Positions 8,556 to 56,177 of a stretch of 64,000 nucleotides of DNA are shown piece by piece. The first letter of the stretch is position 1. Every line of letters starts with the position of its first letter. The notes beneath the pieces were generated by a model. That model had not been told where the DNA came from. It made no database searches and saw nothing but the letters and a program-made list of their open reading frames with translations. The position numbers were made by a program, and so were the translations under genes. Source of the stretch: Halobacterium noricense (GTDB lineage: Archaea; Halobacteriota; Halobacteria; Halobacteriales; Halobacteriaceae); the NCBI RefSeq assembly GCF_021233435.1, contig NZ_CP089468.1, forward strand, positions 1,984,001 to 2,048,000, read 5' to 3'.

Positions 8556-8592
8556 TCCTCCGCCTGAAGGCGGAGGAATCCCAAGCGTTGGG
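8556..8592 (-). repeat. tnpB element right-end hairpins (possible omega-RNA 3' region)
   Basis: Two hairpins follow the tnpB stop. One lies at 8556-8577, with 10-bp arms tcctccgcct and aggcggagga around a 2-base loop; the other at 8580-8592 (cccaa-gcg-ttggg). Flanking TTGACATCC on the outer side matches the usual right boundary of haloarchaeal IS200/IS605 elements as I recall it. In TnpB systems the guide omega-RNA is transcribed from this end, extending into the flanking host DNA. Confidence 0.65.
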
Positions 8593-8595
8593 ATA

Positions 8596-9726
8596 TTAGG
8601 GTTTGCAGTCTCCCCGTTCTCTCGGTGTGAACCGTCCGCTCTCGCGGTCGAACAGGAAGACTCCGGGCTGTGCCAACCAGCCGTTACTCATATCCCCCGT
8701 CGGGGGACTCTGAGTTATCTTTCGGCGGATGTTCACCGCGCCGTTCACGTCTGCGTTCATCGTCGTTTCACAGGGCTCGCAGACGTACAGACCGCGCTCC
8801 ACGCGATTACTGTCTCGAATCTGCCCGCAACACGAACACGTTTTCGACGTGTTCTCCTCGTCCACACGGTCAACGAGGATACCGTGTTCTTCGGCCTTGT
8901 ATTCGAGCAGGTTCGTGAAACGGTCGAACCCCCATCCGTGCAACTTCTTGTTCCCCGACTGGCCCCAATTCCGCGAGTCGCCGTCGTCCTCGCGAATGTC
9001 ACTGAGGTCGCCGACCGTGATCTTCCCCACCTCTTCTTCGGCACACCGTTGCACGATGTGATTGCTGAGGGTGTGGAGGAAGTGGTCTTTGCGTCGGGAG
9101 AGTTTCTGCCGGGCCTTCAACGCACGCTTCGACGGCCCGTTCTCGCCTTCGGTCTGATACTCCTCGCGGGTGAAGTAGTGCTTGTCCTCTTTCAGCACAT
9201 TTCCCGGATACAGCTCACTTGCGCCATCTTCGTAGTCGATTGCGAGGTAGTTACTGATGCCGAGGTCGATGCCCGCCGTGTTGTCGCCGGGTGCGTCCTC
9301 GACAGGGATTTCTTTCTTGCAGACGAGGTGGAGTTCCCAGCGGTCGCCGTTCCAGACGACGCGCACCTGCTGGATGTTTTCCACCTGTATGTCGGGCCGA
9401 GTTTCGTACTCTGCGAGGATGAAGTCCGACCGTCCGTCTTTCAGATTCCAGCCTTTCGAGAGGCGAACACGGTTGTGCTTGTCGTCGTGCTTGATGCCTT
9501 TCTGCTTCCACGTCACGGTGGAGCGCGGGTGTCTGCCGCCACGTTTCCGGTAGCCCGGTGGGTTGTTGCCGTCGTCGGAGTTGTACCAGCCAGTGAACGC
9601 CTCAGCAAGCTCTTCGAGAACTCGCTGACTTGTCTGAGAATGTAGGTCACTGTAGCGTTCGTGGTCTTTCAATTCCGACTTCAGTTCGGCTTCATCGGGT
9701 ATCTCGCCGTTGTCGTCCCTACGCAG
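8596..9726 (-). pseudogene. tnpB: TnpB (RNA-guided nuclease) with lost N-terminus
   Basis: TnpB-family homology covers about 376 codons, but the frame meets an in-frame stop at 9727-9729. Typical haloarchaeal TnpBs have about 45-50 more residues before the point where this one begins (near Asn-Gly-Glu-Ile-Pro-Asp-Glu). The only in-frame starts are internal, such as TTG at 9672. The RuvC core shows Gly-Ile-Asp-Leu-Gly-Ile, the zinc ribbon Cys-Ser-Cys-Cys and Cys-Glu-Pro-Cys, and the last catalytic Asp in Asn-Ala-Asp-Val-Asn-Gly-Ala. The RuvC-II position usually reading Glu-Asp-Leu is Gly-Asp-Leu. Loss of the N-terminal wedge region makes activity unlikely. Confidence 0.8.
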
Positions 9727-33223: not shown

Positions 33224-33481
33224 CGTGGCTACAACGGGGAGTTCCTCAACCCCTACAGCGATGGCTGAGAAATACGTGTCGACTGGTCGCCTCCCCCAAC
33301 TGTATCGTTGACGAACTTTCTCTACAGAAACTCGAATCCACTGCATTCCGTTCCCGACCCGACGTGGAACTACCTAACTCCATTCGCGTGATGCAAATGG
33401 CCCAAAACCGCTCCTCGGCGGCGACTTCGTTCCCACCGCCTCGGCGGTAGACGCACGTTCGCCCGCCCGATAAAAGGTACG
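33224..33481. other. Gene-free stretch at the left edge of the TA island
   Basis: These bases separate the Lrp-TrkA_C regulator from the first 40-bp repeat. They include a small ccgcctcggcgg palindrome (33438-33449). Frames on the minus strand are open but lack recognisable protein features. No gene is called. Confidence 0.4.
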
Positions 33482-33521
33482 TGTGCGCCCGCGACACTAC
33501 CGGGCGACAATCTACTAGTAG
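33482..33521 (+). repeat. TA-island direct repeat R1 (40 bp)
   Basis: This copy starts tgtgcgcccgcgacacta, continues ccgggcgacaa, and ends tctactagtag. The first half can fold as cgcccg-(9 nt)-cgggcg, and the second half is a palindrome. Copies R2 (34292), R3 (37790) and half-copy R4 (38685) have the same orientation. R1 lies 57 bases before the winged-helix antitoxin gene. Confidence 0.85.
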
Positions 33522-34284: not shown

Positions 34285-34291
34285 TTCGAGA

Positions 34292-34331
34292 TGTGCGCCC
34301 GCGACACTAACGATCGTGAATCTACTAGTAG
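34292..34331 (+). repeat. TA-island direct repeat R2 (40 bp)
   Basis: R2 begins 8 bases after the PemK pseudogene stop. Its first 18 bases equal R1 (tgtgcgcccgcgacacta), and the end tctactagtag is identical; the middle differs (acgatcgtgaa). The cgcccg/cgggcg pairing of R1 and R3 is not kept here, so the primary sequence, not that hairpin, seems conserved. Confidence 0.85.
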
Positions 34332-37608: not shown

Positions 37609-37789
37609 CCGGGCGGGAGTAAGCGTGAGTCCCGTCGCTGCGCACGTCGTCGAGACCGGTCAGTCCCCTGATTCCCTCGCCGACTAGCTCGCTCGTCCCA
37701 CGGAACCGAACGGCCTCATCGTGTGATCACTCCTAAACCCCAAATTCTCCCCGTAGAGACCATATACGACTGACTACGCAATCGGGAAA
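37609..37789. other. Gap between ISH8 and repeat R3
   Basis: The stretch starts with the right copy of the 10-bp target duplication. Joining 36205 to 37619 reconstructs the pre-insertion site. No gene is seen; it includes a short tgatcac palindrome at about 37723. Confidence 0.4.
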
Positions 37790-37829
37790 TGTGCGCCCGC
37801 GACACTACCGGGCGAGTTTCTACTAGTAG
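37790..37829 (+). repeat. TA-island direct repeat R3 (40 bp)
   Basis: R3 matches R1 except in four middle bases (gttt versus acaa). It keeps the cgcccg-(9 nt)-cgggcg pairing and the tctactagtag end. It lies 51 bases beyond the 3' end of the DUF3368 pseudogene, which is on the other strand. Thus the repeat orientation is constant while the enclosed genes can face either way. Confidence 0.85.
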
Positions 37830-37880: not shown

Positions 37881-38371
37881 CTACTGATTGGTTTCGCAGA
37901 GAATCTGTTCGTAGAGGTCGTCGGAAATCCAAAATCCGGCTTCACGGAGGGCGTCCAGTTCGTGTTCCAGATTCACTGCTCCGGTCTTCGCTCCGCGAAG
38001 CAGAATGCCGATCGCGCCCGTGACGTTCAGGTCGTGTCTGCGGGCGACGCGCCGGCCGTCTTGCTCGTCAAGCAGCACGAGGTCGGCGTCCTGTTCGACC
38101 GCATGGCAGATTGCGGCCGTTTCACCCGAATCGAGCTCGTGGAAGATTTCGACGAACAGGTCAGAGCGCTCCACCTCGACGAGCTTCAGAAATCCGTCGT
38201 TCTGCAACTCCCTGAGCGCTTCCAATCCTCCTCTCCGTCGGTGAGTTCACTCCAGACCTGGCGCGGTATCGTGGTTTCGGAGAACTGTGACTGGAGCAGG
38301 TCGAGCCGATCGATGAGTGCGAGGTTCAGAAGTGGGGACGTGTCCGAGACGACAAGCCCATTATTCGGCAT
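37881..38371 (-). pseudogene. DUF3368 (PIN-like) toxin, frameshifted
   Basis: The gene starts at 38371 (Met-Pro-Asn-Asn-Gly-Leu-Val-Val-Ser-Asp-Thr-Ser-Pro-Leu-Leu) with the DUF3368 catalytic Asp. The frame breaks near 38222-38232 after Leu-Thr-Asp-Gly-Glu-Glu. The body then continues in another frame as Leu-Glu-Ala-Leu-Arg-Glu-Leu-Gln-Asn to Cys-Glu-Thr-Asn-Gln at 37881. It includes Ser-Gly-Glu-Thr-Ala-Ala and Leu-Val-Leu-Leu-Asp-Glu-Gln-Asp-Gly. One missing base restores a full-length 160-residue protein. Its start overlaps the UPF0175 gene end by 11 bases, the usual UPF0175-DUF3368 arrangement. Confidence 0.85.
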
Positions 38372-38606
38372 ACTCGAGGTCTTCGGCCAACTCCCGTTCA
38401 CCGTAGTGCCGGGGAATCTCGCGCTCCCCGAGGAGGGCCTGAAACTCCCGCTCCGAGAGGCCCGCCAGTGTACGCGCCTTCCCGAACGAGAGGACGTCAC
38501 GAGCGTACAACGAGACCGCCAGCTCTCGCTTCATCGCAGGCGAGCGCTCCCCTTCCGGGAGCTGTAACGCCTCGTAGACATCGTCGTCGATCTCAATCGT
38601 CGCCAT
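38361..38606 (-). CDS. UPF0175 family antitoxin
   Basis: The 81-residue protein starts Met-Ala-Thr-Ile-Glu-Ile-Asp-Asp-Asp-Val-Tyr. It has the family core Lys-Arg-Glu-Leu-Ala-Val-Ser-Leu-Tyr-Ala-Arg-Asp-Val-Leu-Ser-Phe-Gly-Lys-Ala (about 26-44), followed by Ala-Gly-Leu-Ser-Glu-Arg-Glu-Phe. UPF0175 proteins are small DNA-binding antitoxins found with DUF3368 PIN-like toxins, as here. It is intact while its toxin is frameshifted. Its upstream region contains half-repeat R4 at 38685. Confidence 0.85.
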   Translation of the reverse strand: MATIEIDDDVYEALQLPEGERSPAMKRELAVSLYARDVLSFGKARTLAGLSEREFQALLGEREIPRHYGERELAEDLEYAE

Positions 38607-38684
38607 ATCCGAATGTAGGCGTACGGGATTCTTGAGTGTTTGGCTGAATTCGGCGACGAACGTAGCGAGCGCTGAGAGACTGGA

Positions 38685-38709
38685 TGTACGCCCGCGACAC
38701 TAACGACCG
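38685..38709 (+). repeat. TA-island repeat R4 (left half only)
   Basis: tgtacgcccgcgacacta followed by acgaccg matches the first 25 bases of R1-R3 with one change in the first 18 (a for g). The tctactagtag half is absent. It marks the right end of the repeat-delimited island, directly before a hairpin array. Confidence 0.75.
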
Positions 38710-38733
38710 ACCTCATCCGTGGGCGGCGTGCCC

Positions 38734-38985
38734 CGTTGGCCGGGAAACCCTCGTGGCGGGCGGGGGCTTCCGACGGAAGCCCCGATTGGCGAAGCGGCGG
38801 TAGCCGCTGAGCCGGGCAGCCTCGTTGAGGCCGCCAATTGCCGAAGCGGCGATAGCCGCTGAGGCGGGAGTGCTCTACGAGCACTCCGAATGGCGAGGCG
38901 GTTCACACCGGCTCGCTGCGTGGTGTGTGACGCCACCAGCCGGGCAGCCGTCGGGCTGCCGGTGTGTCGCACGCCGGGGTTCTCC
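38734..38985. repeat. 52-bp-period array of alternating conserved and variable hairpins
   Basis: Units begin at 38784, 38836 and 38888, exactly 52 bases apart. Each has about 31 bases of conserved sequence containing agcggc...gccgct, then a 21-base perfect or near-perfect hairpin with 9-bp arms and a 3-base loop whose sequence differs per unit (38763-38783, 38815-38835, 38867-38887). The flanking partial units at about 38734 and after 38919 are degenerate. Frames crossing it are not credible proteins. No genes are seen from 38710 to 39068. Confidence 0.8.
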
Positions 38986-39068
38986 GAGCGGTCATCGCGT
39001 CCGCATGGACAGACTCGGCTGGGGACAAACGGCGCGCGTGGGGTCTAGGCGGCCGCGTAGAAAGAGGG

Positions 39069-39296
39069 TTACGCCTCTGCCGTCTCGGTGAGCGCGTACA
39101 CCTGTTCTTTGGTCTCGCAGAGCCCGCAGACGCATTCGGCGAGGCTGGCGTCGTCGAGTTCCGCGAGCGCGTCCGCAGCGTCGGCTTCCGAGAGGCGAGC
39201 CTCCTCGGCCACTTCGGCCGGGGAGAGCGGGCCGCAGTTGTCGAGCACGACGCGCGCGAGTTTCGCCGCGCACGACAGTGCCTCGGACTCACTCAT
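39069..39296 (-). CDS. Small helical haloarchaeal protein
   Basis: The 75-residue protein begins Met-Ser-Glu-Ser-Glu-Ala-Leu-Ser-Cys-Ala-Ala-Lys. It has a helix-turn-helix-like segment Leu-Ser-Pro-Ala-Glu-Val-Ala-Glu-Glu-Ala-Arg-Leu-Ser-Glu-Ala-Asp (about 26-41) and ends with Cys-Val-Cys-Gly-Leu-Cys-Glu, a possible metal site. It may be a small DNA-binding regulator. ATG at 39294-39296 is favoured over the longer upstream start. It is divergent from the dehydrogenase at 39398. Confidence 0.65.
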   Translation of the reverse strand: MSESEALSCAAKLARVVLDNCGPLSPAEVAEEARLSEADAADALAELDDASLAECVCGLCETKEQVYALTETAEA

Positions 39297-39397
39297 CGCT
39301 TCCGCGTAGTTGATACGAGCCAAAAACCCTTCGTAAAGCGGCGAGTAGGGTTCCCGTCGCACAACGCTTAGGGTGGTCGCCGCCGACGAGCGAGGCG

Positions 39398-40345
39398 ATG
39401 CCAGACATCACAGTACTGCGGACGGGTGCCCACGGCACCCCGATGTCGGAGTACGCCGCCGCGCTGCGCGACTGCCTCCCCGAGCAGGACATCGCGCTCG
39501 CGCGGACGCCGGCCGACGAGCGCGAACTCGTCGCGGACGCTCGCGTGGTGACGGGCGGCGACATCGACGAGGAACTGCTCGCACGAGCCGAGAAACTAGA
39601 GCTGTTCGCTGGCGCGTACGCCGGCTACGAGCATCTGCCGTTGGACGCGTTCCGGTCCCGGGACATCGCGGTGACGAACGCCGCGGGCGTGCACGCGCCG
39701 AGCGCTGCCGAGCAAGTGCTCGGGTACGTGTTGACGTTCGCGCGCAGTCTCCACGAAGGGTGGCGACGCCAGCAGAACCGCGAATTCCGCCACTATCAGG
39801 CGTACGAGCTGAAGGATTCGACGGTCACCGTCGTCGGCCTCGGTGCCATCGGGCAGGGCATCGTCCAGCGCCTCCAGGGGTTCGACGTGGACACCATCGG
39901 CGTGCGGTACACGGCCGAGAAGGGCGGCCCGACGGACGAGGTTATCGGGTTCGACGACGAGGCGCTCCACGACGCGTTCGCGCGCACCGACTACCTCGTG
40001 CTGGCGTGCCCGCTCTCGGATACCACGCGGAACCTCGTCGACAGGGAAGCACTCGACACGCTGCCGCCGGAGAGCGTGCTCGTGAACGTCGCACGCGGCG
40101 GCGTCGTCGACACGGACGACCTCGTCTCCGCGCTGCGCCAGGAGCACATCCGCGGTGCCGCGCTCGACGTCACCGACCCCGAGCCGCTCCCCGAAGACCA
40201 CCCGCTGTGGACGCTCGAAAACGTCGTCGTGACCCCCCACACGGCCGGACAGACCCCCCAGTACTGGGACCGCCTCGCCGACATCCTCGCGACGAACGTC
40301 CCGCGCCTCGATACCGACGAGGAACTGCGCAACCGCGTCGCCTAA
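39398..40345 (+). CDS. D-2-hydroxyacid dehydrogenase (NAD(P)-dependent)
   Basis: The 315-residue enzyme reduces 2-ketoacids to D-2-hydroxyacids or the reverse. The Rossmann motif is Val-Gly-Leu-Gly-Ala-Ile-Gly-Gln-Gly (about 147-155). The catalytic triad is visible as Arg in Val-Ala-Arg-Gly-Gly-Val (about 232), Glu in Asp-Pro-Glu-Pro-Leu-Pro (about 261) and His in Thr-Pro-His-Thr-Ala-Gly (about 280). This matches the haloarchaeal D2HDH group. The physiological substrate is uncertain. It overlaps the convergent membrane-protein gene by 4 bases. Confidence 0.92.
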   Translation: MPDITVLRTGAHGTPMSEYAAALRDCLPEQDIALARTPADERELVADARVVTGGDIDEELLARAEKLELFAGAYAGYEHLPLDAFRSRDIAVTNAAGVHAPSAAEQVLGYVLTFARSLHEGWRRQQNREFRHYQAYELKDSTVTVVGLGAIGQGIVQRLQGFDVDTIGVRYTAEKGGPTDEVIGFDDEALHDAFARTDYLVLACPLSDTTRNLVDREALDTLPPESVLVNVARGGVVDTDDLVSALRQEHIRGAALDVTDPEPLPEDHPLWTLENVVVTPHTAGQTPQYWDRLADILATNVPRLDTDEELRNRVA

Positions 40346-55902: not shown

Positions 55903-56092
55903 CGCTCCTCCTGCTGGCCGCGGCGCTGGCGAACTCGCGTGTACGCAGAAGGACAGCAGCGCTGCTGTCGAGTATTACTTTCGCGAGAATTTGCGTGGGT
56001 GATGTCCCAGAGGGGATATCACCGTGCATCGCCGTTTGCCTCCGCGGCTTCGCCGCGTCGGCGTTCGGCGGCGCGTAGCGCCGCCCGAGCGA
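55903..56092. other. Hairpin-rich gap downstream of regulators
   Basis: These bases contain a ccgcggcttcgccgcgtcgg hairpin (about 56042) and a ggcggcgcgtagcgccgcc hairpin (about 56068-56086) just beyond the 3' end of the tRNA gene. They could serve as tRNA or mRNA terminators. No gene is found. Confidence 0.45.

Positions 56093-56177
<85 letters not shown>

Follow-up and report, generated by a model that had tools for sequence, protein, structure and literature searches.

A 52-bp-period hairpin array in Halobacterium noricense as the probable inter-module spacer of a twin box H/ACA guide RNA

A 64,000-nucleotide stretch of Halobacterium noricense DNA (contig NZ_CP089468.1, positions 1,984,001 to 2,048,000; hereafter the window) contains a short array of hairpins that repeats every 52 bp beside a toxin-antitoxin (TA) island, which raises the question of what kind of element it is. 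A first-pass annotation had placed a stand-alone array at 38734-38985, with units starting at 38784, 38836 and 38888. We found the units and the period just as described, together with three intervening hairpins of 9 bp and a 3-nt loop. The hairpins at 38763-38783 (GGGGCTTCC-GAC-GGAAGCCCC) and 38867-38887 (GGAGTGCTC-TAC-GAGCACTCC) pair perfectly, and that at 38815-38835 (GGCAGCCTC-GTT-GAGGCCGCC) has one mismatch, which is an A.C on the plus strand and hence a G.U pair on the minus strand. The agcggc/gccgct stem, said to be present in every unit, is exact in units 1 and 2 and degenerate in unit 3; likewise, the third unit scores 32 bits in cmsearch versus 72 for the other two. The minus strand of 38763-38917 folds with a z-score of -7.7, surpassing 200 of 200 dinucleotide shuffles, and the stretch 38730-38990, which likewise surpasses all 200 shuffles, yields z-scores of -7.2 on the plus strand and -6.2 on the minus strand. 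When the corresponding spacers of 13 Halobacterium genomes are considered together, 33 stems of at least 8 bp are observed versus 3.4 in shuffles. These measurements confirm that the array exists at these coordinates and lies far above chance.

Using 38730-38990 as the query of a DNA search, we recovered the locus from 13 of 13 Halobacterium genomes, with conserved ends and a variable middle. Widening the search resolves the conserved ends into two blocks, 38684-38765 and about 38964-39037, and the locus is flanked in all 13 genomes by a convergent small gene and a hydroxyacid dehydrogenase gene. The distance between the conserved ends differs by non-multiples of three, as do the spacer lengths in relatives, so we rejected a coding region; the array does stand outside a coding gene, as had been proposed. 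Its extent needs revision, since the array is the middle of a wider feature, an RNA gene of about 354 nt on the minus strand (Table 1). The 3' domain of this gene (38684-38765) is present in at least 255 of the 293 genomes of the order, nearly always in a single copy. An exception to single copy is a Haloquadratum walsbyi J07HQW1 MAG scaffold (L171, L173), on which the complete guide RNA occurs twice in nearly identical form. A large plasmid record of Natrinema thermotolerans (CP031304.1:666002-666080) carries a partial copy that matches query positions 302-381, the HP2 part, and this may be either a solo HP2 or an att remnant. The pattern is absent from viral contigs, and we set aside two matches in bacteria (L150, L168) as chance.

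Table 1. Features of the RNA gene and its surroundings, in window positions (position 1 is the first nucleotide of the window).
Feature	Position	Strand	Remarks
Gene taken to encode the twin box H/ACA guide RNA (~354 nt)	38684..39037	-	conserved ends, fold, promoter profile
TATA-like promoter element of RNA gene (approximate)	39064..39072	-	AT profile, 134 distinct loci
HP1, first H/ACA hairpin	38965..39037	-	lower stem GCGCGCCG/CGGCGUGC; ACA box 38965-38967
Variable spacer, HP1 to HP2 (holds the array)	38763..38964	-	length 0-257 nt, 134 distinct loci
Module 3 hairpin A, degenerate	38892..38917	-	cmsearch 38867-38917, 32.4 bits
Module 3 hairpin B, 9 bp + 3 nt, perfect	38867..38887	-	
Module 2 hairpin A, GCC-UC-AGCGGC-UAUC-GCCGCU-UC-GGC	38840..38865	-	cmsearch 38815-38865, 72.0 bits
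Module 2 hairpin B, 9 bp + 3 nt, one G.U on RNA strand	38815..38835	-	
Module 1 hairpin A	38788..38813	-	cmsearch 38763-38813, 72.3 bits
Module 1 hairpin B, directly abutting HP2	38763..38783	-	
HP2, second H/ACA hairpin	38685..38762	-	lower stem CGCCCGC/GCGGGCG; ACA box 38685-38687
3' terminal 22 nt of RNA gene, att-like	38684..38705	-	repeated at 37789-37810, 34291-34312, 33481-33502

We collected 141 haloarchaeal loci, a set that includes seven repeat fetches and thus comprises 134 distinct loci, and found HP1 and HP2 in one locus with the spacer between them. Each hairpin consists of a lower and an upper stem around an invariant internal pocket, as judged by alifold, by pair counts over the 134 sequences and by single-sequence folding. 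In the window, the trinucleotide ACA lies directly 3' of each lower stem, an arrangement shared by the large majority of the relatives in the alignment, and conserved K-turn-like motifs can be read by eye (GA...GAUGA in HP2 and CGAG...CGAUGA in HP1). Folding of the full-length RNA as a single sequence predicts HP1 and HP2 with a series of separate linker hairpins between them.

To establish the functional strand, we counted base pairs by type in the 134-sequence alignment. HP1 contains 2175 Watson-Crick, 240 G.U and 26 A.C cells, with 11 pairs showing at least two Watson-Crick types, and HP2 contains 2221, 180 and 4 cells, respectively; the conserved stems of both hairpins, lower stems included, covary across these loci. 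The alifold energies are -27.3/-27.9 for the minus strand versus -14.2/-14.7 for the opposite strand. Counted from the GTCCCC of the HP1 pocket, AT content across the 134 distinct loci peaks at -45/-44 (BRE), -39 to -36 (TATA) and -21 ('-10'); these are the positions of archaeal BRE, TATA and -10 elements, which would put the RNA start near 39037. The TATA-like element overlaps the stop codon of the upstream minus-strand gene. On the strength of the G.U/A.C asymmetry, the alifold energies and the promoter position, we rejected a plus-strand RNA, and the functional strand is, by these sequence-based measures, the minus strand. The 5' end of the gene was set from the promoter spacing and the 3' end from the ACA box.

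The HP2 pocket is CACGAGGGUU / CGUUAGUGU, and its GAGGGU / GUUA, UAGU are complementary, as seen by eye, to H69 (UAACUAUGACCCUC) of the genome's own 23S rRNA. The AACCC/GUC of HP1 fits GGGUU-U-A-GAC in the PTC region. A crude scan of the 23S rRNA for targets did not discriminate, as the published sites did not score above shuffled guides and the published U of HP1 came second among four candidates. The target assignments therefore rest on the literature and on the complementarity to H69.

Based on its architecture, its target complementarity and a Haloferax locus of the same RNA, we regard this RNA as the haloarchaeal twin box H/ACA guide RNA. The Haloferax volcanii twin guide RNA is presumably the one that bears the name sR-h45 (Blaby et al. 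2011). The RNA itself was already known, and its H/ACA identity and targets are taken here from the literature. In 2008, Grosjean et al. (PMC2584109) predicted that H. volcanii and other halobacteria carry two H/ACA hairpins, which they described as "separated by a long spacer", and assigned them targets in 23S rRNA: Psi2621 for HP1, and Psi1956 and Psi1958 for HP2 (H. marismortui numbering). A further paper lists Halobacterium salinarum and treats the Haloferax volcanii motifs (Hvo1/Hvo2) as experimentally validated (PMC4652768). The RNA described here shares with the H. volcanii pair the two H/ACA hairpins in one RNA, the long spacer between them and an HP2 pocket complementary to H69, and H. 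salinarum is among the named carriers. It differs in that the main text of the 2008 paper gives "a long spacer", without tandem modules or copy-number variation. That paper's account also treats hairpins of the Thermococcales Pf7/Pab40 H/ACA RNA (stems II and III of Pf7) as homologous; there, however, the hairpins are adjacent and the spacer array is absent. Thus, the array is very probably the inter-module spacer of a twin box H/ACA guide RNA whose own promoter drives transcription of the minus strand, and an unexplained repeat becomes a named part of a housekeeping RNA rather than the stand-alone array of the first-pass annotation.

No Rfam 15 family reaches its gathering threshold over this stretch, the best E-values for 38300-39400 being 1.2-3.3, so Rfam lacks a family for this conserved haloarchaeal guide RNA. 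RNase P RNA (RF00373) was rejected as a candidate, its single match lying elsewhere in the genome. The only above-gathering Rfam match in the window is the sense-overlapping transcript sot0042, at 8556-8720 on the minus strand (97 bits).

We then characterized the spacer. It is 82-257 nt long in Halobacterium, with a median of 45 nt elsewhere; a few genera, Halocatena among them, lack it entirely or almost entirely. In the window it contains three modules (38763-38813, 38815-38865 and 38867-38917). A module is about 51 nt long and consists of a hairpin A, 4 nt and a hairpin B. Hairpin A has the form GNC-UC-6 bp-UNNC-6 bp-UC-GNC, with a 2x2 UC/UC internal loop, and hairpin B has the form GG...CC, with about 9 bp and a 3-nt loop. 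Searching the 134 distinct spacers with a covariance model built from 11 module copies identifies the module in about 40, which belong to several families. One to five copies occur in Halobacterium, Haloarcula, Halorhabdus, Halosimplex, Halorientalis, Halapricum, Natronomonas, Haladaptatus, Halomarina, Halorussus and others, and Haloarculaceae have module-built spacers; sampled spacers of Haloferax, Halorubrum and most Natrialbaceae lack the module. This is a natural series, from 0 to about 5 linker modules, in which to ask how two H/ACA RNPs tolerate or use separation on one RNA. Among the roughly 40 module-bearing spacers, 11 of 18 module pairs change on both sides, and the covariation score is 0.68 versus 0.20 in shuffles. 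Since this set was chosen for pairing, its 100% of paired cells is no evidence, and it is the variety of pair types that counts. Compensatory change is present both within the array and in homologous arrays across species, which upholds the earlier proposal that structure is kept and not sequence. In addition, 74 of 128 spacers have a hairpin that ends no more than 3 nt from HP2, where shuffles lead one to expect 8.7. The modular tandem spacer appears undescribed in the literature that we searched, a search that had most subscription journals outside its scope. Like rRNA expansion segments, it is a self-folding, length-variable insertion between conserved functional domains; unlike them, it lies outside rRNA and is a tandem array of one recurring module.

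The module also has matches outside the guide RNA. One lies in the window at 56038-56085 on the plus strand (37 bits, genome-wide E-value 6.5e-7), beside and in the opposite orientation to tRNA-Leu(GAG) at 56093-56177 on the minus strand. The region downstream of this tRNA is itself conserved, many haloarchaea having GCGAUGC-closed hairpins and a second CCCACGCA repeat there. A weaker match (L257:1501-1549, genome C1:290491-290539; 27 bits) lies just upstream of what appears by eye to be the ribosomal protein L15e gene. Another, in the opposite orientation (L275:1501-1550), falls within the RNase P RNA of a different haloarchaeon and is perhaps an expansion hairpin.

With respect to the role of the spacer, we consider a folded linker the most likely reading. 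HP1 and HP2 would assemble with Cbf5, Nop10, Gar1 and L7Ae and guide pseudouridylation of 23S rRNA; for guiding as such, the spacer seems dispensable, because the two hairpins can be adjacent in genera that lack it. We infer that the spacer grew by tandem duplication of the ~51-nt module in Halobacterium and several other lineages, and that it acts as a self-contained folded linker keeping the two RNP modules apart. The sequence of such a linker could drift and its copy number change as long as each segment folds back on itself, with selection maintaining the self-pairing of each segment. The linker may stack against HP2, and it may avoid mispairing with the H/ACA hairpins or holding the RNPs too close.

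The main rival accepts the same RNA and attributes the complementarity of the spacer stems to template switching during replication, which turns quasi-palindromes into palindromes, the spacer being neutral filler. A mutational origin could underlie near-perfect stems. In favour of this rival, the stems are almost purely Watson-Crick, and in Halobacterium the ratio of G.U to A.C at arms of at least 7 bp is 8:8, without strand bias. The fast turnover of the spacer and its length of 0 in some genera are also in keeping with filler. In stricter stems, however, G.U exceeds A.C on the RNA strand, by 9:2 in Halobacterium (arms of at least 8 bp) and by 21:5 in the others (arms of at least 9 bp), and by 12:3 in the hairpin next to HP2. 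Furthermore, hairpin A keeps its unpaired UC/UC loops while the flanking stems covary, which argues against palindrome correction, since correction would erase the loops. On balance we judge template switching rather unlikely beside the folded linker.

A different rival sees the A-B module, placed in a stable RNA, as an independently functioning domain that binds protein or RNA. Its spread over several families, its conserved internal loop and A-NNYYGG junction and its match beside tRNA-Leu(GAG) in three genomes would suit such a domain. It is nonetheless absent from the sampled Haloferax, Halorubrum and most Natrialbaceae spacers, and the match beside tRNA-Leu has the opposite orientation, so that an RNA would carry GA/GA there rather than UC/UC. 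We regard this idea as improbable. The same low standing applies to the view of the A-B pair as a portable haloarchaeal RNA module that would act in spacing, processing or protein binding in at least two stable RNAs (the H/ACA spacer and the tRNA-Leu(GAG) trailer) and be tandemly multiplied in some lineages. A CRISPR array, a REP/BIME-type repeat or an island-end DNA element, which the 52-bp period and the adjoining TA island might suggest, is scarcely credible given that synteny and the conserved RNA ends refute it: conserved RNA domains flank the array on both sides in every Halobacterium genome searched, the RNA is widespread without the island repeat, the unit is not dispersed at the sequence level, and, where CRISPR has near-identical repeats and unrelated, non-palindromic spacers, the repeats here are 73% identical and the intervening "spacers" are palindromic hairpins, as the annotation had recognized in setting CRISPR aside.

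The same annotation had noted that the array adjoins the last repeat of the TA island. It does, since the att-like repeat sequence of the island coincides with the 3' end of the RNA gene. The array is not an island-end element, however, as the RNA is found in nearly all haloarchaea, mostly without an adjoining repeat in the DNA examined. The four copies of the 22-nt repeat (0 expected by chance) bound three tandem islets, whose content includes a UPF0175/DUF3368 pair (toxin-antitoxin-like), a TrmB-like/DUF7437 gene and a DDE transposase. A repeat of the gene's 3' end occurs downstream of the RNA in 20 of the 141 haloarchaeal loci (repeat fetches included), none of the 141 has one upstream, and shuffled queries find none. 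Small islands appear to integrate recurrently at the 3' end of this H/ACA guide gene, which looks like a hot spot for them; we did not find this described in the literature searched, whose scope again excluded most subscription journals. Some of the downstream repeats are copies of a dispersed MITE-like repeat of about 185-230 bp. In several genera this repeat (L023:1194-1423 on the minus strand, and also L075, L082, L135, L158 and L181) immediately adjoins the RNA gene at its 3' end, and many Halobacterium genomes contain at least eight matches to it. We had considered CGACCTTTT as the native terminator of the RNA and dropped it because this sequence belongs to the inserted dispersed repeat. 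The far end of the MITE-like repeat mimics the 3' stem of the RNA (CGCCCGGTAGTGTTCCGGGCGTACAT).
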